A program made the position numbers and the translations under genes. From Paenibacillus sp. FSL H7-0331 (GTDB lineage Bacteria; Bacillota; Bacilli; Paenibacillales; NBRC-103111), in the NCBI RefSeq assembly GCF_001956045.1, contig NZ_MRTH01000023.1:59418-123417 (forward strand): DNA of 64,000 nucleotides, given 5' to 3'. The notes beneath the pieces were generated by a model that worked only from the letters and a program-made list of their open reading frames with translations, searched no databases and had not been told where the DNA came from. Positions 36,087 to 45,093 of the stretch are shown here, in pieces. Within the stretch, counting starts at the first letter, position 1. Every line of letters begins with the position of its first letter.

Positions 36087-37319
36087 ATGAATAGTTCAAT
36101 TAATAGTACGAAGGCTGCGCCCCAGCCGGTCACTCGGGGGAATAAGCTGTGGATGGTGCTTGTGCTTGGTTCTTTGGCAGCCTTTGCCCCTCTGTCCATT
36201 GATATGTATTTACCAGCGCTGCCTGCAATAGCCGGGGAGTACAGCACCAGCGCGTCACTTGTTCAGCTTAGTCTTACTTTTTTTCTGCTCGGATCTGCAC
36301 TTGGCCAATTGTTTGCCGGGCCGATCAGTGATGTTCGCGGCCGTCGGATGCCACTTCTGGTTGGTCTTGCTCTGTATGCCGTTACTTCGTTGTTATGTGC
36401 ATTCAGCCCTTCGGTCGAAAGCCTGATCATACTCCGTTTTGTCCAGGGACTGGCTGGTTCTGCCGGAATTGTCATCTCTCGTGCAATTGTAAGGGACCTG
36501 TATTCGGGAACGGAGCTGACGAAGTTTTTTACACTTTTGATGCTGGTGAATGGGGTGGCGCCGATCCTTGCTCCGATCGCTGGAGGACAGCTCATGAGGG
36601 TAACCTCCTGGCATGGCGTATTTATCGTATTATGTGTATTGGGTATGGTGATGCTTGCAGCGGTGTTCTTCGGTTTGCGTGAAACGCTGCCGAATCAATT
36701 GCGTTCCAAGGGCGGCATTGGCAACACCTTGTCCACCTTTCGCGGCCTGCTTGTAGACCGTGTGTTCATGGGGTACGCGATTGCGCAAGGGTTAGTTTTT
36801 GCAGCCATGTTTGCTTATATATCGGGCTCACCGTTTGTGCTTCAGGAGATTTTTCATGTATCACCGCAAATGTTTGCCGTATTTTTTGGGATTAACGGTC
36901 TTGGCATCATTATTGCCGGTCAAATCACGGGTAGGCTGGTTGGCCGATTAGGTGAAACGAAGCTGCTGATCACAGGTCTCGGTATTTCATCTTGCGGTGG
37001 TGTACTGCTGCTCCTCATGACCGTAACAGGTGCGGGCTTGTATGCGATTCTGCCAGCTTTATTTATGGTCGTGTCGAGTGTAGGTATCGTATCTTCAACC
37101 GGATTCTCATTAGCGATGCAAAATCAAAGCAAATCCGCGGGCACGGCATCGGCGCTGCTTGGTGTACTCTCGCTCTTGCTGGGTGGCGTTGTAGCCCCGC
37201 TTGTTGGTTTGGGTGGAAGCCAATCTGCCTTACCGATGGGCCTCGTTATTGCCTGCACATCCGTAGGCGCTGTGATCGTATACGTATTGATGGTGCGCCG
37301 CAAAGCACCAGTATCATAA
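36087..37319 (+). CDS. Bcr/CflA-type multidrug efflux MFS transporter
   Basis: The 410-residue protein has 12 predicted membrane helices. Signature stretches are APLSIDMYLPALPAIA in TM1 and GPISDVRGRRMPLLVG after TM2, with the intact MFS motif A, and VQGLAGSAGIVISRAIVRDL in TM4-5, typical of Bcr/CflA drug:H+ antiporters. AAAGGTGG precedes the start. It ends 86 bases before the cNMP-domain ABC exporter in the same direction, so read-through is possible. A small GC-rich hairpin (37322-37336) without a T run lies between them. Confidence 0.92.
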   Translation: MNSSINSTKAAPQPVTRGNKLWMVLVLGSLAAFAPLSIDMYLPALPAIAGEYSTSASLVQLSLTFFLLGSALGQLFAGPISDVRGRRMPLLVGLALYAVTSLLCAFSPSVESLIILRFVQGLAGSAGIVISRAIVRDLYSGTELTKFFTLLMLVNGVAPILAPIAGGQLMRVTSWHGVFIVLCVLGMVMLAAVFFGLRETLPNQLRSKGGIGNTLSTFRGLLVDRVFMGYAIAQGLVFAAMFAYISGSPFVLQEIFHVSPQMFAVFFGINGLGIIIAGQITGRLVGRLGETKLLITGLGISSCGGVLLLLMTVTGAGLYAILPALFMVVSSVGIVSSTGFSLAMQNQSKSAGTASALLGVLSLLLGGVVAPLVGLGGSQSALPMGLVIACTSVGAVIVYVLMVRRKAPVS

Positions 37320-37405: not shown

Positions 37406-39553
37406 ATGCAATTTTTTCGAACCTTGATGCCCTATTTGCTGCAAAATAAGCTATTGGGCATATTTTTTATATGCGGTGTCATAGTCGAAGTTATTTATTT
37501 GGTAGCAGCGCCGCTAAGTCTGAAGTATTTGGTAGATGAAGCGTTCGTACCAAAAAACTTCCAAGTTTTCGTTGTCATATTAAGCATTTTGATCATTGGT
37601 GGTGCGTTAAGCATCTGTGCCGGTACCGGCAGTGATTATGCCCTTAACAAGTTGAGCGGGAGGGTCATTCAGAGGCTCAGGACAGAACTATTTGCCCATA
37701 TGCAGAAGCAATCGCTTCCTTTTTTTGAAAAATATCGGGTAGGCGACCTTGTCTCCCGTTTTTCGTCTGATATGGCTTCTATTGAAAGAGTGATTTGTCA
37801 ATCGTTTCCCTTTCTCATTAAAGAAACGTTAAGTATTTTGATGGGGCTAGTCATGCTGTTGGTATTAGAATGGAAGCTTACTTTGGCGATGCTGATCGGT
37901 TCCATATTGATGTTTATCGGCCCTAAGCTGCTGCAGGGCAGGGCAGAAGCCAGTAATGCTAAGTATAAAGAAGCTCAAGAGCAATTTTCCAATATGATCG
38001 ATGAAACGGTCAAAGGCTATAAAATCGTTAAAGCTTTACATCAACAGGATAGGCTCCTGCGGCGTGCCCAGGGGCAAATTCGAGATCTGCTATCTCTTGG
38101 TTTAAACATGCACATCTTGAATTCACTGCTTGAACGGCTGCCGCTAACCGTACTACTGGTGCTGAACGGGACGATGATCGGCTTTGGAGGTTACCTGATC
38201 TTTCATGATCAGATGACAGTTGGTGACTTTATTGCCTTCTTTACTTTATTTATGAGTGTCGGTCAATCTGCATCGAACCTCTCCTATTTGATACCTAACC
38301 TTATTGATTCCAGCATCAGCTTCAAACGAATATCAGAAATATTGAATCATCAGCCAAGTGTGCCGGAAGCGTCTGATCCCGTTGCTCTGCCTCCCCTGGA
38401 CAAGTACATAGAAATGAATCAGGTAACCTTCGGTTTCACCGAGGGGACGGATCAGATCAAGGAGGTCAGCTTGCGTATTGCTGCCGGCAGCTATGCGGCG
38501 TTTGTAGGTCCAAGCGGCTCCGGTAAAAGCACAGCCTTACAGCTTTTATCGCGTTTTTACGATCCAAGGCAAGGCTCCGTTCGTATAGATGGTTATGATC
38601 TGAGAACCGTAAGTGAGGCTTCCTTAAGGAGGCAAATGGACATTGTGTTCCAGGACACGTTCCTGTTTAATACGACAATCAGGGATAATCTGCGGCTTGG
38701 CAGCGAACTGGTTACAGATGCCGAGATGATGGAAGCGGCCGAGCTGGCACGTATTCATGAAACCTTGATAGGCTGGCCAGAGGGCTACGATACGCTGATC
38801 AACAACGAAGGAGCATCGCTTTCGGGCGGGCAGCGCCAGCGAATTTCCATAGCAAGGGCGCTGCTGAGAAAGCCGAGGCTGCTGCTGCTGGATGAGGTTA
38901 CTTCAGCTCTGGACCCTGCCACTGAGGCTGACATCAATCAGACTATCCAACAGCTGAGACATCATACAACGATTATTTCCGTCACGCATCGATTGTCGTC
39001 AATCGTGAATGCAGATGTGATTTTTGTTTTTCAAGACGGCAGGATCGTCGAGTCTGGAACCCATCAGGAGCTACTGCAGCAGTCTGGACTCTACCATGAA
39101 ATGTGGGAAAAACAGCATGGCTTTATGCTGTCTCAGGACGGGCTTCATGCCACAATCGATGGACACCGACTAGCCAAGTTTCCATTTTTCGCTGGAGTTG
39201 ATTTGCTGCTCCTGCAGAACATTTCCACTCTGTTTTCTACGGAGACCTTCAAAGAAGGCGACACCGTCGTCCAGGAAGGGGAACAGGGAGACAAATTTTA
39301 CATCATCGTTCGAGGTAAGTTCGAAATTCTGAAAAGCTTTCAGAGTGGCAGCTTGCAGCGGGTTGCGACGCTGCAGGATGGGGATCATTTTGGCGAAATC
39401 GCCCTGCTGAGGGGGATTCCCCGGACTGCCACGGTGAGGGCAATGGGGCCTTCGGTATTACTATCTGTGAGACGGGAAGCTTTTCTGGAATTGACCGCGA
39501 AGTATCCGCAAATTTTTACCGTTGTGGAGCGAACCCTGAAGGAGCGAATCTAA
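37406..39553 (+). CDS. ABC exporter (TMD-NBD) fused to a cyclic-nucleotide-binding domain
   Basis: The 715-residue half-transporter has a six-helix exporter domain (residues ~1-310), then an ATPase domain with Walker A GPSGSGKST (368-376), signature LSGGQRQ (472-478), and Walker B LLLLDEVTSALD. Residues ~595-715 form a cNMP-binding (CAP-like) domain with the phosphate-binding cassette FGEIALLRGIPRTATV; Arg673 is the residue that contacts the cyclic phosphate in known members. No N-terminal C39 peptidase is present. It is followed 17 bases later by a GNAT-like gene, a peptide gene and a second GNAT-like gene, so it most likely exports the modified peptide or its product. The C-terminal sensor is an unusual addition to an exporter. 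Confidence 0.92.
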   Translation: MQFFRTLMPYLLQNKLLGIFFICGVIVEVIYLVAAPLSLKYLVDEAFVPKNFQVFVVILSILIIGGALSICAGTGSDYALNKLSGRVIQRLRTELFAHMQKQSLPFFEKYRVGDLVSRFSSDMASIERVICQSFPFLIKETLSILMGLVMLLVLEWKLTLAMLIGSILMFIGPKLLQGRAEASNAKYKEAQEQFSNMIDETVKGYKIVKALHQQDRLLRRAQGQIRDLLSLGLNMHILNSLLERLPLTVLLVLNGTMIGFGGYLIFHDQMTVGDFIAFFTLFMSVGQSASNLSYLIPNLIDSSISFKRISEILNHQPSVPEASDPVALPPLDKYIEMNQVTFGFTEGTDQIKEVSLRIAAGSYAAFVGPSGSGKSTALQLLSRFYDPRQGSVRIDGYDLRTVSEASLRRQMDIVFQDTFLFNTTIRDNLRLGSELVTDAEMMEAAELARIHETLIGWPEGYDTLINNEGASLSGGQRQRISIARALLRKPRLLLLDEVTSALDPATEADINQTIQQLRHHTTIISVTHRLSSIVNADVIFVFQDGRIVESGTHQELLQQSGLYHEMWEKQHGFMLSQDGLHATIDGHRLAKFPFFAGVDLLLLQNISTLFSTETFKEGDTVVQEGEQGDKFYIIVRGKFEILKSFQSGSLQRVATLQDGDHFGEIALLRGIPRTATVRAMGPSVLLSVRREAFLELTAKYPQIFTVVERTLKERI

Positions 39554-39570
39554 TCGAAAGGAGCGGAACG

Positions 39571-40095
39571 TTGTCCATGACTATTTATTGTAAACGCTGT
39601 GCGACCGATGATGATTATGCCAAAGCGAGTCTGTTTATGCTGCAGAATAAGAGAGAGCTGCATCCCAGCTTAAGCACCGTGGATATTATTACGCTGCTTT
39701 ACTATTATATGACTGCTGGCAACCTGATTATGGTTATGGATGCAGACGAACATATGTTGGCTGTAGGTGCATACTATATGGGTACGCCTGAACAGGAATT
39801 TGTGGATAAACAACGGGTTGTGTTGGTCGATAATGTGATCGTAGCCAGATCATATCGAAGCACTCGTGTATTTATCCGCGGTTTTCGATATTTGATGAGC
39901 CAGATTATCGAGGATAATCGGGAAGTACAAGAATTTCGCTTCGTCGCGCTTTCCGAGAATACGTATTTACAGAAGCTCTATCCCAAGTTTGCTAGTTTCA
40001 TAGGCAGTCGGGAAGGGACAATAGGTACCGAAGATATATACAGTGTTGAAATTCACAAATTAAGGACTTTTTTGGATCGATTCGCTAGGATATAA
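39571..40095 (+). CDS. GNAT-like acyltransferase homologue A
   Basis: The 174-residue protein starts at TTG 39571, seven bases after AAAGGAG (an in-frame ATG at 39577 is spaced less well). It shows a GNAT-like order: an N-terminal helical part, a central strand NLIMVMDADEHMLAVGAYYM, a strand VVLVDNVIVARSYRSTRVF and a helix GFRYLMSQIIEDNREVQEFR. The canonical (Q/R)xxGx(G/A) acetyl-CoA loop is not intact; YRSTRVFIRG stands in its place. It is clearly paralogous to the protein at 40239: both share YR-T-VF--G-R-L---I--DN--VQ. It may act as an acyltransferase on the encoded peptide or make a signal molecule (inference). Confidence 0.7.
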   Translation: MSMTIYCKRCATDDDYAKASLFMLQNKRELHPSLSTVDIITLLYYYMTAGNLIMVMDADEHMLAVGAYYMGTPEQEFVDKQRVVLVDNVIVARSYRSTRVFIRGFRYLMSQIIEDNREVQEFRFVALSENTYLQKLYPKFASFIGSREGTIGTEDIYSVEIHKLRTFLDRFARI

Positions 40096-40140
40096 TAAGG
40101 ATATAAGGAAATACACTTAGTGACAAAGGAGGCATATGCT

Positions 40141-40239
40141 ATGTTCCCAGTACCCCCCAACATAAAAGGTAACAGTAAGGGTGGTGGTTTTTCGAAAATC
40201 GTGAAAACCAATGATAACCTAAGAGTACAACCTCAATAA
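40141..40239 (+). CDS. Small peptide (32 residues), possible precursor or signal peptide
   Basis: ATG at 40141 lies eight bases after a perfect AAAGGAGG. The 32-codon frame begins MFPVPPNIKG, has a central KGGGFSKIVK and ends NDNLRVQPQ. The stop TAA (40237-40239) overlaps the start of the next gene (TAATG), so translation is coupled. The peptide is basic (five Lys/Arg against one Asp), has no Cys and no hydrophobic signal sequence, and is rich in Pro at its N-terminus. The triple Gly could be a processing or modification site. The setting, between two GNAT-like paralogues and beside an exporter, is that of a ribosomal peptide precursor. No known precursor family is recognised. Confidence 0.7.
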   Translation: MFPVPPNIKGNSKGGGFSKIVKTNDNLRVQPQ

Positions 40240-40760
40240 TGGCACTTCAATTTCGCCTTAGTCAGTTTGAAATGGATCTGGAGTTATATATATCTTTTTT
40301 GCTCGAACACCATGGTGAACTGAATTTACCTTATTCGTTTGCAATGAAGCTGAGTTTTATCGCCAGTCCCTTGGTCTTAGGTAAAGCATTGATGATTTTC
40401 AATGAAGAGCCATATGAGATGATCGGGACTGCAGGTTTTGTTTATGGAACAAGTACCCATGATTATGAAGATCAGCATATTTGTCAGGTGGAGGTAGCCT
40501 TTATTCAAAAGGCCTATCGTCATACTTCTGTATTTGCTCAGGGTTTAAGAGAATTGGTCCAAGCCATTAAAGCGGATAATGAAGCTGTGCAGCAGGTTCA
40601 GTTCTGGACGCCTGTTGATCAGCCCAAGCTGGACAGGCTTTTGGGCAGATTCACTTTACTGCCTCATGCAACGAAGTCCATCGTGAACAATATGGCTTTC
40701 TACACCATTCCATTCGATGAACTGGAATCCTATTGCAATCGATTGCGGGATTTTAGGTAA
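40239..40760 (+). CDS. GNAT-like acyltransferase homologue B
   Basis: The 173-residue protein is a paralogue of the protein at 39571. Shared positions include the strand ending VEVAFIQKAYRHTSVFAQGL and the helix LVQAIKADNEAVQQVQFW. An intact acetyl-CoA P-loop is not obvious, so catalysis is uncertain; it may be a divergent acyltransferase or a partner of homologue A. Its ATG overlaps the peptide stop codon by one base, so it is made in step with the peptide. A terminator follows 26 bases after the stop and closes the operon. Confidence 0.7.
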   Translation: MALQFRLSQFEMDLELYISFLLEHHGELNLPYSFAMKLSFIASPLVLGKALMIFNEEPYEMIGTAGFVYGTSTHDYEDQHICQVEVAFIQKAYRHTSVFAQGLRELVQAIKADNEAVQQVQFWTPVDQPKLDRLLGRFTLLPHATKSIVNNMAFYTIPFDELESYCNRLRDFR

Positions 40761-40786
40761 TTGGCTCAAGACATAGGTGAGGACTG

Positions 40787-40810
40787 AGGTACCCGTTGGG
40801 TGCCTTTTTT
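40787..40810 (+). terminator. Terminator of the ABC-GNAT-peptide operon
   Basis: AGGTACCC pairs with GGGTGCCT (one wobble) around a 3-base loop; six T follow. Confidence 0.85.
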
Positions 40811-41036: not shown

Positions 41037-42044
41037 ATGAAGGTTACGATCTACGATATTGCCAAGGAAGCGGGCGTCTCTATTGCTACCGTGTCCAAAG
41101 TCATTAACCGTGGAGGACGCATAAGCGAAAAGACCCGTAATAAAGTCATTAAAATTATGGATGAGCTGAATTATCAGCCAAGCGTCGTTGCATCGGCTTT
41201 GACCGGTAAGCAGACCTATACGCTGGGACTGCTGCTGCCGGATTTGGCGAATCCTTTTTTTGCGGAGATTGCGAGAAGTATAGAGGATCGTGCCCAGGAA
41301 ATGGGCTTTAACGTCGTCATTTGCAGTACGGATAACAGTCTGGATAAAGAAGAACGTTACATTTCATTGTTAAAGCAAAAAAGCGTCGATGGCATCATTA
41401 TCGCAACAGGGGTTCGCAATGATGCTTTATTAAAGGAATTGGTTCGGCAAAAGCTCCCCGTTGCACTCATCGCGCGAGATATGCCGGCTGTCGCTGTGGA
41501 TATCGTGCTGGTCGATGACTTTCAGGGCGGTTATTTGGCAACCTCTTATTTGATCCAAAATGGCCATAAGCAGATTGCCGTAATTGCCGAGGACACCGAA
41601 GTAATGAGCAGCAAGGAGCGGATTCGCGGCTATCAGCATGCCTTGGAGGAAGCGGGGATTCCATTTAATCCTGAGCTGGTGCGCATTAGTGATTTTAGTG
41701 TGAAAAGCGGCAAAATAGCTGCAGGTGAGCTGCTGCAGGGATTAAAAGCTTGTACGGCCGTGTTTGCCTGTAATGATTTGTTGGCTATCGGCACGATTCA
41801 AGCTGCACGCGAAATGAAGCTGTCTATCCCTGACGATTTATCGGTCGTAGGGTTCGATAATACGATTCTGGCCACGATCGTGGACCCGCCGCTCACGACG
41901 ATAGCCCAGCCGATTCAGGACATGGGGGCTCAGGTCGTCAATATGATTCTTCGCCATATTAATGGTGGTCATACGATGAATCAGAGAATGGTGCTGCCAC
42001 CAGAGCTCGTTATTCGCTCATCGGTATCCAGGCCGAGGAAATAA
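41037..42044 (+). CDS. LacI-family transcriptional regulator
   Basis: The 335-residue protein has the N-terminal LacI HTH and hinge (TIYDIAKEAGVSIATVSKVI, then YQPSVVASALTGKQ) and a periplasmic-binding-like core (residues ~60-330; LGLLLPDLANPFFAEIARSI, VFACNDLLAIGTIQA). It is convergent with the kinase-aldolase-SIS operon, whose regulation it is a candidate for, although the operon promoter carries a different palindrome. The effector is probably a sugar phosphate of that pathway (inference). Confidence 0.92.
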   Translation: MKVTIYDIAKEAGVSIATVSKVINRGGRISEKTRNKVIKIMDELNYQPSVVASALTGKQTYTLGLLLPDLANPFFAEIARSIEDRAQEMGFNVVICSTDNSLDKEERYISLLKQKSVDGIIIATGVRNDALLKELVRQKLPVALIARDMPAVAVDIVLVDDFQGGYLATSYLIQNGHKQIAVIAEDTEVMSSKERIRGYQHALEEAGIPFNPELVRISDFSVKSGKIAAGELLQGLKACTAVFACNDLLAIGTIQAAREMKLSIPDDLSVVGFDNTILATIVDPPLTTIAQPIQDMGAQVVNMILRHINGGHTMNQRMVLPPELVIRSSVSRPRK

Positions 42045-42049
42045 AAAAG

Positions 42050-42087
42050 CAGGAAAAAGCTTGTATAGTCGATTCGCTATACAAGCT
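42050..42087 (-). terminator. Terminator of the kinase-aldolase-SIS operon, overlapping the kinase stop codon
   Basis: AGCTTGTATAG and CTATACAAGCT form a perfect 11-bp stem (42058-42087). In minus-strand direction it is followed by TTTTT and later TTTTTT. The kinase stop codon lies within the stem. Confidence 0.75.
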
Positions 42088-43024
42088 CTACGGTAATTTC
42101 TGTTTGTAAACGTTCTACATCATGAAGCTGTACATAACCTGCCCGTTCCGTCAATGCATTCGCTGAAGCAACGGCAGAAGCGTACTGCAAGCAGGTGGGA
42201 AACCGGAGGTTTTGAGCCGTAGCCATTGCCATGCCAGCGACAAAGGAATCTCCGCAGCCAACGGTATTGACCACCTGAATAGGAGGACCCTGCACCCGAT
42301 ATAATGCTCCTTCATAAGCACTGATCGAACCCGCTGCTCCCAGAGAAACGGTCACACGCGGGATGCCCTGCTGCTGCAAGCGAAGCAAGCCCTCGGCTCG
42401 ATCTGTATCTGGTTGATCCTCGGCATTGCCCTCATTGAAAGCCCCAAGCAGCGTAGTGACCTCGTCTTCATTAGGCTTCACAAAATCAGGCTGCGCACCT
42501 ACCCCTTGCAGCAGAGCAGTACCACTCGTATCGAGAAAAGCAAGCGCTCCGGCTTGCTTCACAATACGGATCAGCTGTGCGTAGCCATCGGTGGGTACGC
42601 CCTGCGGTAAGCTTCCCGAGAAGCATACGATACGCGACTGTGCAGCGAGACCAGCCAGCTTGGCCTGGAAAAACTGCCAGGTTTCAGCCGAAATCCAGGG
42701 GCCTTGCTCCAGAACCTCAGTTGAAGAGCCGTTCGATTCATCAATCATGTTCAGGCATAGCCGTGATTCTTCCTCGATCTGTACAAAATCATGCTTGATT
42801 CCTTGCGCATCCAATTTTTGTTCAATGAACCGGCCATTATGACCGCCAATGATACCAGTGGCTAGAACCGGATAGCCCATCTGCTGAATAACACGGGCAA
42901 CATTGATCCCTTTGCCACCCGGCTCGGCGTACATCTGCCGTACCCGGGATACCTGTCCGAGTGGAAAACTGGATATATAGTAGGTTTTATCGATGGCTGC
43001 GTTCAGGGTTACGGTAGTAATCAT
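42077..43024 (-). CDS. PfkB-family sugar-phosphate kinase (1-phosphofructokinase/tagatose-6-phosphate kinase type)
   Basis: The 315-residue protein has the first PfkB signature GGKGINVARVIQQMG and the second NTVGCGDSFVAGMA, whose Asp is the catalytic base (GCGD in place of the usual GAGD). It begins with TVTLNAAIDKTYY, as in FruK/LacC enzymes. AAGGAGG stands before ATG 43024. With the class II aldolase just upstream it fits a route in which a ketose phosphate is phosphorylated to the 1,6-bisphosphate and then cleaved. Tagatose-6-P or fructose-1-P are both possible. Confidence 0.9.
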   Translation of the reverse strand: MITTVTLNAAIDKTYYISSFPLGQVSRVRQMYAEPGGKGINVARVIQQMGYPVLATGIIGGHNGRFIEQKLDAQGIKHDFVQIEEESRLCLNMIDESNGSSTEVLEQGPWISAETWQFFQAKLAGLAAQSRIVCFSGSLPQGVPTDGYAQLIRIVKQAGALAFLDTSGTALLQGVGAQPDFVKPNEDEVTTLLGAFNEGNAEDQPDTDRAEGLLRLQQQGIPRVTVSLGAAGSISAYEGALYRVQGPPIQVVNTVGCGDSFVAGMAMATAQNLRFPTCLQYASAVASANALTERAGYVQLHDVERLQTEITVELV

Positions 43025-43034
43025 GAGTGCCTCC

Positions 43035-43901
43035 TTAGCGAATACCGGACGCTTTACCGATGCTGCCAAGCATCCGCATTTTTTCCATTGCCGCTTCTTT
43101 TACGGCTTTTTTGGCAGGCATCATATATTTACGTGGATCGTTTTCATCCGGATTGTGCGCGAATACCTGCTTAATGGCATCGGAGAAGACGATGCGTATT
43201 TCGGTTGCGATATTCATTTTGGACATGCCCAGCGAGATACAGCGTTTGACCTGCTCCTCGGGAATACCTGAGCCACCATGCAGAACGAGTGGAACCGCTA
43301 CGCGATCAGCAACCTGACGGATTCGCTCAAAATCGATATTCGGGTCGCCCTTGTAAATGCCGTGCGCGGTTCCAATGGCAGGAGCCAATGTGGGAACTCC
43401 GGTAAGCTCAATAAAGCGGGCACATTCCTCTGGGTCAGCTAATAGCGCTTCGTGTTCAGCGACTACGATATCGTCCTCAACGCCCCCAACCTTCCCAAGC
43501 TCGGCTTCCACATTCACACCAGCAGCGCGGGCGATGTCCACGATCCGTTTGGTTTGAGCCACATTTTCCTCAAAAGCAAACATGGACGCATCAATCATTA
43601 CCGAGGTGTAGCCTGCGCGGATGCAGTGAATGATCATATCAAAATCGGTGCAATGGTCCAGATGAAGCGCAATGGGAACACCCGAACGATTGGCGGCAGT
43701 GGTCGCAGCTGCGACCAAATAGTCAGCTCCCAGATGCTTGACCGTTCCTACTGTCGATTGCAAAATGAGCGGGGAATTGGTTTCCTCCGCAGCGTCTACC
43801 ACGGCTTGCAGCATTTCTAGAGTGTGTACGTTAAATGCGCCAATCCCATAACCTTGGCTGCGGGCAACTTGCAATAAGGCTGTCGATGAAACTAACGGCA
43901 T
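43035..43901 (-). CDS. Class II fructose/tagatose-bisphosphate aldolase
   Basis: The 288-residue protein starts VSSTALLQVARSQGYGIGAF. The catalytic Asp and zinc His lie in ALHLDHCTDF; further zinc ligands are in GTAHGIYKG and VLHGGSGIP. The length and GAFNVHTLEM block fit the GatY/KbaY/FbaA family, which splits the ketose bisphosphate into DHAP and glyceraldehyde-3-phosphate. TAGGAGG precedes ATG. It lies 10 bases upstream of the kinase gene in the same operon. Confidence 0.92.
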   Translation of the reverse strand: MPLVSSTALLQVARSQGYGIGAFNVHTLEMLQAVVDAAEETNSPLILQSTVGTVKHLGADYLVAAATTAANRSGVPIALHLDHCTDFDMIIHCIRAGYTSVMIDASMFAFEENVAQTKRIVDIARAAGVNVEAELGKVGGVEDDIVVAEHEALLADPEECARFIELTGVPTLAPAIGTAHGIYKGDPNIDFERIRQVADRVAVPLVLHGGSGIPEEQVKRCISLGMSKMNIATEIRIVFSDAIKQVFAHNPDENDPRKYMMPAKKAVKEAAMEKMRMLGSIGKASGIR

Positions 43902-43918
43902 GAATGATTCCTCCTAAG

Positions 43919-43938
43919 AGTGTTCCTTTAGGAACACT
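43919..43938 (-). promoter_or_regulatory. Intercistronic hairpin before the aldolase gene
   Basis: AGTGTTCC and GGAACACT pair perfectly around TTTA/TAAA, just before the aldolase ribosome binding site. There is no T run; it may affect mRNA stability or translation. Confidence 0.45.
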
Positions 43939-43981
43939 GACATCGTAAGCATAAGCTGAGTTTTGCGTAACAAAGCTAACG

Positions 43982-45037
43982 TTAAATTTTCACAACCTGT
44001 GTCAAATTGCGCGGCGAATCCGGATCGGCATTACGGTTCAAGGCTGTGTAGTAGCCCAAAAATTGCAGGGCAGGTAAGTAAAGTACACTTCTGGCTTCGT
44101 CGGAGATGTCGCTGCCGCCTACTTCGAATACAGCATCAGCAAATGAGGTATCCTCACCTTTGTTGGCCGTTAACAGTAGTACAAATGCTCCGTACTCCTG
44201 CATTTCGCGTGCAACCTTCAATTCATAATCACGAGCCTGTTCTGACAGCAGCAGGCAGACGAGCGTACCTGGCTCAACGATCGATTTGGGACCATGACGG
44301 AACTCCAGCGTTCCATATGCTTCTGTCCATACATAGGACATTTCCTTGATTTTCAAACAAGCTTCCAATGAAAGACCGTAGAGTGCTCCCATACCCAAAT
44401 ATACATATTTAATGAAGGATTGCTCACGTACCAGGGTATCAATAAAAGGTTCGGCGGCCAGAACGGTAGCTCCATCCTGCTTCACGACTTTGGCAAGCTC
44501 CTCCAACAGGTCAAGGCGGCCTGCAGCTTTGGCGATCGCCGCTTGCATCATAAATGTCATGCTGCTGAGTGATTTCGTCATAACTGTGCTCGTTTCTTTC
44601 CCGAGTGGGGAGACGAGGCATTCCGCCAGCTTGGCCATCGAGCTACCCTCATAGCAGGTGATACCGGCAATCGTCCAGTTGGCAAGCGATTGTACGGACT
44701 CCAGCGCCAATACAACCTCAGTCGATTCACCAGAACGGGACACGCCAATTACCAGATAATTGCGATGAGAAGGAGCCGTTTGCTCACGGAACAGCAGCAA
44801 ATCTGACGATGGGTAAGCAACAGCGCTTCTTCCCAGCCAGGCTCTGCAGGTAGCGGCCATCGTAAGTGCCTGATAGTACGAGGAACCGGATCCGATAAAA
44901 ATGATCTCTTCAAAAGCAGCGTTATTCAAGTAACGTTCAATCCAGTCCTGCTGTAGCTCCAGTTGGTCCCATGCGGCTGAAATCGCCTCGGCTTGTGCGT
45001 TAATTTCTGAATAGGTGTGTTGTCCTAATGTCGTCAT
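43982..45037 (-). CDS. SIS-domain sugar isomerase/deaminase (AgaS/GlmS-C-like)
   Basis: The 351-residue protein has two SIS domains (IIFIGSGSSYYQALTMAATC, then VIGVSRSGESTEVVLALESV; FIKYVYLGMGALYGLSLEAC, then TEAYGTLEFRHGPKSIVE). The EFRHGP motif is typical of the isomerase half of GlmS and of AgaS/FrlB-type deaminases or deglycases. There is no glutaminase domain. It probably converts an amino or glycated sugar phosphate to the ketose phosphate used by the neighbouring kinase. ATG 45037 follows GGGAG; a longer frame to 45076 covers the promoter. Confidence 0.88.
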   Translation of the reverse strand: MTTLGQHTYSEINAQAEAISAAWDQLELQQDWIERYLNNAAFEEIIFIGSGSSYYQALTMAATCRAWLGRSAVAYPSSDLLLFREQTAPSHRNYLVIGVSRSGESTEVVLALESVQSLANWTIAGITCYEGSSMAKLAECLVSPLGKETSTVMTKSLSSMTFMMQAAIAKAAGRLDLLEELAKVVKQDGATVLAAEPFIDTLVREQSFIKYVYLGMGALYGLSLEACLKIKEMSYVWTEAYGTLEFRHGPKSIVEPGTLVCLLLSEQARDYELKVAREMQEYGAFVLLLTANKGEDTSFADAVFEVGGSDISDEARSVLYLPALQFLGYYTALNRNADPDSPRNLTQVVKI

Positions 45038-45064
45038 TTTCACAGCTCCCTTCGATATAATGAA

Positions 45065-45093
45065 ATTATAATTCATAATTATGATTTATTCAA
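45065..45093 (-). promoter_or_regulatory. Promoter of the SIS-aldolase-kinase operon with operator-like palindrome
   Basis: On the minus strand TTGAAT and TATAAT are exactly 17 bases apart. The spacer holds the perfect 12-bp palindrome TCATAATTATGA (45073-45084), a good candidate repressor site. It does not resemble the palindrome upstream of the LacI-family gene. Confidence 0.7.

Follow-up and report, generated by a model that had tools for sequence, protein, structure and literature searches.

A conserved small-peptide gene with two GNAT-fold paralogues and an ABC exporter in Paenibacillus and other genera

The operon and its conserved peptide gene

The subject of this analysis is an operon in Paenibacillus sp. 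FSL H7-0331 (contig NZ_MRTH01000023.1), located in a stretch of 64,000 nucleotides referred to here as the window. An ABC exporter with a cyclic-nucleotide-binding (cNMP) domain is followed on the forward strand by genes for two GNAT-fold proteins, A and B, which flank a gene for a 32-residue peptide. On the evidence of sequence comparison, this peptide gene is real and conserved, and together with the two divergent GNAT-fold paralogues and the exporter it forms a module encountered repeatedly in Paenibacillus and Cohnella and in some further genera. The operon is laid out as follows.

37406–39553, + strand: ABC exporter of 715 amino acids (transmembrane domain and ATPase); Pfam ABC_membrane at residues 18–285 and ABC_tran at 352–500; Walker A, signature and Walker B motifs
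39242–39505, + strand: cyclic-nucleotide-binding domain at the exporter C-terminus, residues 613–700 (PF00027, E 1.1e-23)
39389–39433, + strand: phosphate-binding cassette FGEIALLRGIPRTAT of the exporter cNMP domain; FGE...R in 32 of 36 aligned exporters
39571–40095, + strand: GNAT-fold protein A, with the tyrosine of the LYxK helix (30 of 30 A-type proteins); TTG start, alternative ATG at 39577; AlphaFold2 mean pLDDT 93.6; fold matches in PDB
40125–40132, + strand: ribosome-binding site AAAGGAGG of the peptide gene
40141–40239, + strand: gene of the 32-residue peptide MFPVPPNIKGNSKGGGFSKIVKTNDNLRVQPQ; conserved family, purifying selection
40239–40760, + strand: GNAT-fold protein B, a paralogue of A without this tyrosine (0 of 30 B-type proteins); AlphaFold2 mean pLDDT 93.4; fold matches in PDB
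40786–40806, + strand: terminator-like hairpin followed by a T-run, a consensus match only

The exporter and A are separated by 17 bases, and the TAA of the peptide gene overlaps the ATG of B by one base. The original prediction, made from this sequence, had described the same order from exporter to terminator, and every element lies where it was placed. The terminator is weak on its own, since six such sites occur in the 64-kb stretch against 3.6 expected. ABC_membrane, ABC_tran and cNMP_binding exceed the Pfam cut-off on the exporter; for A, B and the peptide, nothing does so in Pfam or NCBIfam.

The decisive evidence for the peptide gene is comparison across loci and selection, rather than the window alone. 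Protein B as sole query matched 25 of 59 relatives, from which 33 wider loci were read, giving 34 with the window. A small open reading frame (ORF) of a recurring type adjoins the enzyme pair in 32 of them: class 1 in 16 loci (15 directly before B, and L061, where A and the peptide stand without B), a class-1-like form downstream of the pair in five (L046–L050), a related KND/NN form in three (L051–L053), class 2 on the opposite strand in six (L054, L055, L058, L059, L062, L063) and class 3 in two (L057, L060). The small ORF of L042 came to light in the genome-wide profile search described below. The class-3 peptides (L057 5960–6064 and L060 8656–8754; two seen) follow the pattern MS[AS]GMKIN...FDPR...SETSRKA and are encoded on the opposite strand, upstream of the A/B pair.

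An A-based scan of named genomes returned 34 loci, 12 of which duplicated earlier ones. All 22 that were kept, from Paenibacillus, Cohnella, Metabacillus, Gracilibacillus and Ammoniphilus, carry a class-1 peptide. The check named in the original prediction, conservation of a short frame despite sequence drift, came out in its favour in both searches. Cultured carriers include P. periandrae PM10 and P. foliorum LMG 31456. The class-1 consensus, derived from 24 sequences, is MxPxPPxIKxxKKGSGFGKIVKxNDSLRAQPx. Where A is of the class-2 type, a class-2 peptide is present in 13 of 15 loci. One locus (L055 and L142) contains a pair of unlike class-2 peptides (MGAPACN..., MGDAGCQ...), a further multi-precursor case.

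A whole-genome profile search with the peptide only, which took no account of the enzymes, detected class 1 in 15 of 59 genomes and in 33 of 104 family genomes. All 33 carry an A-type match, the A profile matching 51 of the 104. The 33 peptide genomes and 36 exporter genomes (at least 700 bits) are nested within these 51, as read by eye; the associated probabilities of 2e-14 and 3e-16, obtained from typed counts, ignore kinship and mean little. In the 59-genome search, the only peptide match away from known A/B loci was L106, at a contig end, where a damaged A-like stretch precedes the peptide by eye and the A/B profile gave no match.

Judging from the pattern of substitutions, the peptide gene is under purifying selection. 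Across 23 non-overlapping pairs from 46 distinct class-1 sequences, the pooled ratio of non-synonymous to synonymous change (pN/pS) is 0.255, with the qualification that pairing was greedy from the lowest pN and pairs with fewer than three changes were skipped, which favours a low ratio. The set of 46 was assembled with a pattern that missed some peptides, three being added by hand, and later ones (e.g. L175–L178, L181) lie outside it. One class-1 pair differs by 17 synonymous and no non-synonymous changes. Over 31 codons, the window peptide is separated from its nearest relative by some 7.8 synonymous and 5.2 non-synonymous changes. The pooled value is not the ratio near one that the original prediction had named as telling against its interpretation.

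Cohesion of the module across genomes

An exporter of this type is present in the stretch read at 37 of 56 loci (36 plus L032), and in 32 of the 33 class-1 genomes an exporter match, adjacent or not, scores at least 700 bits, against only 636 in G066. Other neighbours recur in at most four of the 56 loci, except for a loose single-linkage cluster of 12 ORFs from 10 loci. The exporter is read in two frames in G009 and with a stop in G078. In Paenibacillus sp. 1_12 (L032 6216–8362), it consists of two overlapping ORFs of 397 and 334 amino acids, with A, the peptide and B open.

The claim that peptide, A, B and exporter belong together is upheld by their co-occurrence in genomes even where the operon is broken. 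For instance, P. contaminans (G029) carries A and a peptide at one place and the exporter, a short A remnant, a peptide and B at another, and P. ginsengarvi has A and a peptide on one contig and a second peptide with B on another. At L184 and L185, an intact exporter stands beside partial A matches, with A, peptide and B retained at another place in these genomes. The precursor can also be doubled, in tandem in L179 and with one copy on each side of B in L177. Carriage of the module as plasmid or phage cargo was discarded after tblastn of A at 1e-5 gave no match in plasmid and phage collections.

The GNAT-fold proteins and the exporter

Both A and B are predicted to adopt a GNAT fold, the mean predicted local distance difference test (pLDDT) scores of their models being those given above. 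In a fold search against PDB, all 50 matches listed for A and for B are of GNAT type, with PaiA, RimI, Naa50, NatC and FeeM among those listed for A. The original description of the two as GNAT-like paralogues agrees with these modelled folds and with a sequence link: a search with B alone picks up the adjacent A of genome G001 (E 5.2e-8, 21% identity), and the A profile finds B genes. The hidden Markov model with which the locus search began is no evidence of paralogy, as it was built from A and B jointly. Weak Acetyltransf_1 matches occur in eight of 30 A and five of 30 B at E up to 0.1, and neither window protein has a Pfam GNAT match above cut-off. Searching protein records with the A profile yielded 69 proteins, called 'hypothetical protein' or 'GNAT family' where named and none with a precomputed Pfam domain; against PDB sequences, the profile gave two matches only (E 0.55 and 0.61), which are not meaningful.

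The two paralogues are not equivalent. The tyrosine of the LYxK helix, a residue that serves many but not all GNAT enzymes as general acid, is kept in all 30 A-type proteins and in none of the 30 of B type, where the position holds F (22), L (5), W (2) or I (1). Equivalence is thus rejected, which alters the original picture of a paralogous pair of joint modifiers. Tyrosine is the commonest general acid of GNAT enzymes, and eukaryotic N-myristoyltransferase (NMT) consists of two GNAT halves, one serving acyl-CoA and the other the peptide (excerpts of PMC4964394). The coenzyme A (CoA) P-loop pattern [QR]xxGx[GA], sought at residues 81–112, is absent from all 30 A and all 30 B, so neither protein can be filed as a canonical CoA-using GNAT.

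The cNMP domain predicted for the exporter is present and its cassette widely kept, the four aligned exporters without the cassette lacking the whole domain. It is not universal, however, and tracks the host's class III cyclase. Of 104 family genomes, 88 encode a cyclase of this class (PF00211), as do 15 of 19 additional genomes, two of which repeat family genomes. The cNMP domain is present in 52 of 61 exporters, and each of these 52 belongs to a genome whose cyclase match is strong (5.0e-26 or better). The nine without it, which rule out the domain as an obligatory part, comprise seven in genomes with no cyclase match and those of G103 and G115, with weak matches of 1.4e-11 and 2.8e-4. Domain and strong cyclase are therefore both present in 52 cases, both absent in nine and never mixed. 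The 61 exporters carry 56 genome labels; L032 (two frames), G066, G078, G306 and named loci without a genome label were left out, and by coordinates G308 equals G126, G309 equals G114 and G128 equals G060. On the exporter tree, each of the two traits changes six times by parsimony.

Neither C39 nor any other peptidase domain exceeds the Pfam cut-off in the exporter, an extra match being a second AAA on the ATPase. A cNMP-bearing exporter was also considered as a marker of the system and rejected: six relatives, scoring 482–647 bits, have no A or B in the stretch read. Of these more distant cNMP-bearing exporters, L210 and L213 adjoin a SET-like gene and L208 and L209 a long leucine-rich-like gene (names by reading). 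These neighbours are possibly other cargoes of the same exporter type.

Proposed mechanism, rivals and known systems

The arrangement of a conserved encoded precursor beside a candidate enzyme and an exporter is that of a ribosomally synthesised and post-translationally modified peptide (RiPP) system. For its chemistry, secretion, gating and function, we lean on balance towards a self-contained system of peptide maturation and export, in which A/B acylates the peptide, likely at its N-terminus, the exporter secretes it and the cNMP domain gates this step. A would be the catalytic subunit, because it keeps the usual general-acid tyrosine, and B a partner without it that helps to hold the peptide. 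Together they may form a split two-GNAT enzyme, a reading that presumes mutual binding of A and B and draws on the analogy with NMT and with NpuN, whose two GNAT domains include one where the P-loop is missing or divergent (excerpts of PMC13060382). The acyl donor would not necessarily be acetyl-CoA, given the missing P-loop pattern. The exporter would secrete the peptide whole, no protease or leader being evident, and cAMP (or cGMP) would gate export through the C-terminal cNMP domain in hosts that have a class III nucleotide cyclase. Ligands beyond these two are possible, as the cNMP domain of the cyanobacterial exporter HetC works with ppGpp.

The most likely target is the N-terminal amine, which would belong to Met before F, I or Y in class 1 and to Gly, after Met removal, in class 2. 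Residue 2 of the 46 class-1 sequences is F in 20, I in 14, Y in nine, A in two and V in one. By the general rule of Met removal, the initiator Met of class-1 peptides should therefore mostly stay. The 15 distinct class-2 peptides all start with MG, which the collecting pattern required, and have C, S or T at residue 6 in 13 cases; their N-terminal identity is 0.60 against 0.22 elsewhere, partly by construction of that pattern, while six of them came from a scan without an N-terminal pattern. Eukaryotic myristoylation follows the motif MGxxx(S/T/C), and the likeness of the class-2 start to it may be chance.

A bolder form of this proposal is tentative, and we think it probably goes too far: a peptide-hormone-like class in which an NMT-like two-subunit GNAT, one subunit active and one pseudo, N-acylates a leaderless tiny peptide with no protease involved, and a cAMP-gated exporter turns a class III cyclase signal into secretion of the acylated peptide.

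Several observations weigh against acylation and gated export of the peptide. The differing N-termini of classes 1 and 2 must fit one N-terminal specificity, the use of CoA is unproven given the absent P-loop pattern, and the body of the peptide is conserved to a degree unusual in a RiPP core, with no visible border between leader and core. Some loci have no recognised peptide. Among the 34 loci found through B, the lone B of L045 has no recurring small ORF, and L056, which keeps both enzyme genes, has one unsupported candidate; otherwise the frame passes the counter-test offered in the original prediction, its absence beside both enzymes. A class-2-type A without a class-2 peptide occurs in two of 15 loci, L147 (which is the L056 locus) and L150. 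In the latter (G103:C23; L150, L186), the class-2-type A gene stands by itself, and neither a peptide nor B nor a close exporter was seen beside it. G021 and G068 each have one B-like match and no exporter at 1e-140, and Gracilibacillus (G300) has A, peptide and B with no cyclase and no exporter at 1e-130. Against purifying selection of the peptide gene stand the L082/L084 pair, with no synonymous and three non-synonymous changes, and the tandem copies of G121, with three and nine (ratio 0.91). With regard to gating, independent pairs on the exporter tree all agree (six on the best tree), yet only four of them fall on branches with support (p 0.125). For two of the nine exporters, the line dividing strong from weak cyclases was drawn with the data already in view, 'strong' being entered by hand.

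The alternative that survives best is possible but unlikely: the peptide would be a small constitutive subunit or activator of A/B, which would acylate some other molecule (a lipid, amine or amino acid) carried by the exporter. A fixed subunit sits poorly with the two peptide copies of L177 and L179, with the separate copies beside A and beside B in P. ginsengarvi and P. contaminans, and with class-2 genes that lie on the opposite strand and have their own ribosome-binding site. Class-1 peptides also range between 30 and 42 residues in length, differing chiefly in the tail, and while L31 and R32 are invariant in the 46 sequences, the later copy L181 departs from that L.

Acylation of a Lys side chain of the secreted peptide, in the fashion of selidamides and nostolysamides, is improbable. 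It would suit the two to seven Lys of class-1 peptides and has a precedent in NpuN, a protein with two GNAT domains that acylates Lys1 of nostolysamide (excerpts of PMC13060382). However, no Lys column exceeds 72% of the 46 class-1 sequences (column 23 has 24 K, 21 R and one Q), five of the 15 class-2 peptides contain no Lys, which favours the N-terminus, and lanthionine synthetase is absent among the recurrent neighbours. The N-terminus is the one amine available in every one of these peptides, if a single enzyme type is to acylate them all. The original proposal of acylation on Lys or the N-terminus is thereby narrowed towards the latter.

We regard a peptide toxin as more doubtful still. 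The GNAT-like pair would then give intracellular protection and the exporter release or self-immunity; exporter-linked self-protection is common in bacteriocin systems, and the window peptide is basic (isoelectric point 10.5) and adjoins an exporter. Against this, no immunity-type gene recurs beside the module, and the peptide is conserved rather than diversifying. Finally, a chance ORF or attenuator, for which the length of merely 32 codons might speak, can be dismissed by conservation and selection, as the protein is kept across synonymous divergence and among genera, and only five of 20,000 base shuffles of the 144-base gap gave at least 32 codons behind AGGAGG.

Among known systems, selidamides and nostolysamides are alike in placing a ribosomal peptide beside a GNAT enzyme. 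Their precursor NpuA has a 78-residue leader and is accompanied by a class II lanthionine synthetase (excerpts of PMC13060382). By contrast, the peptide here has 32 residues in total, Lys is not obligatory and the GNAT folds are on two separate genes. No lanthionine synthetase was seen among the recurrent neighbours of the 56 loci, single neighbours not all being named by profile, and the peptide, with no NCBIfam or Pfam match, has no long leader of the NHLP or Nif11 type. The doubt already voiced in the original prediction that this is a selidamide system is well founded on these differences of precursor, leader and synthetase. In microvionin, goadvionins and lipoavitides, GNATs lipidate the N-terminus of a ribosomal peptide, these being class III lanthipeptides (excerpts of PMC13060382), whereas no lanthionine machinery is seen here. 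Failing their tested features, the system is not a member of the known GNAT lanthipeptide families, though it would work like a GNAT-modified RiPP with an exporter.

Eukaryotic NMT combines GNAT domains for acyl-CoA and for peptide and acts on an N-terminal Gly (excerpts of PMC4964394), which recalls the MG start of class-2 peptides with C, S or T at residue 6. Unlike NMT, which is one chain, A and B are two separate genes in the window and the loci read, and class 1 has F, I, Y, A or V at residue 2; sequence similarity to NMT was neither sought nor noticed. HetC is an ABC exporter with an N-terminal cNMP-type domain that binds ppGpp and a C39 peptidase, and is thought to export a signalling peptide (excerpts of PMC10986499). 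The present exporter differs in having its cNMP domain, with the FGE...R cassette, at the C-terminus and no peptidase domain that could be found. The protein lysine acetyltransferase Rv0998, a GNAT tied to cAMP, is among the fold matches of B, and its structures hold acetyl-CoA and cAMP. Its cNMP domain is fused to the acetyltransferase itself; in this operon, it is fused to the exporter. No description of such a system was found in the literature searched, in which subscription journals are thinly covered, and this type of small-peptide system seems not to have been described before.

Paenibacillus and its relatives would have a class of ribosomal peptides that is both widespread and unannotated; class 1 on its own occurs in 33 of 104 family genomes. 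The class would have escaped notice because its peptides have about 32 residues and its enzymes score above cut-off against none of the Pfam and NCBIfam families. Should A/B acylate N-termini, it would be a minimal two-subunit analogue of NMT, and if the exporter responds to cAMP, it would provide a concrete output for the class III cyclases of 88 of 104 genomes, placing second-messenger control on secretion itself.

Around the operon, a Bcr/CflA-type major facilitator superfamily (MFS) efflux gene (36087–37319) lies directly upstream of the exporter on the same strand; TIGR00710 passed its cut-off, and the best-scoring model, TcaB, was below its own. In the 56 loci compared, this gene clusters only with L031 and L032. 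Downstream, at 41037–45076, a LacI-type regulator is followed by sugar kinase-, class II aldolase- and SIS-domain-like genes on the opposite strand (labels by reading). These genes are common to the window, L031 and L032, and the regulator is also present in L039.

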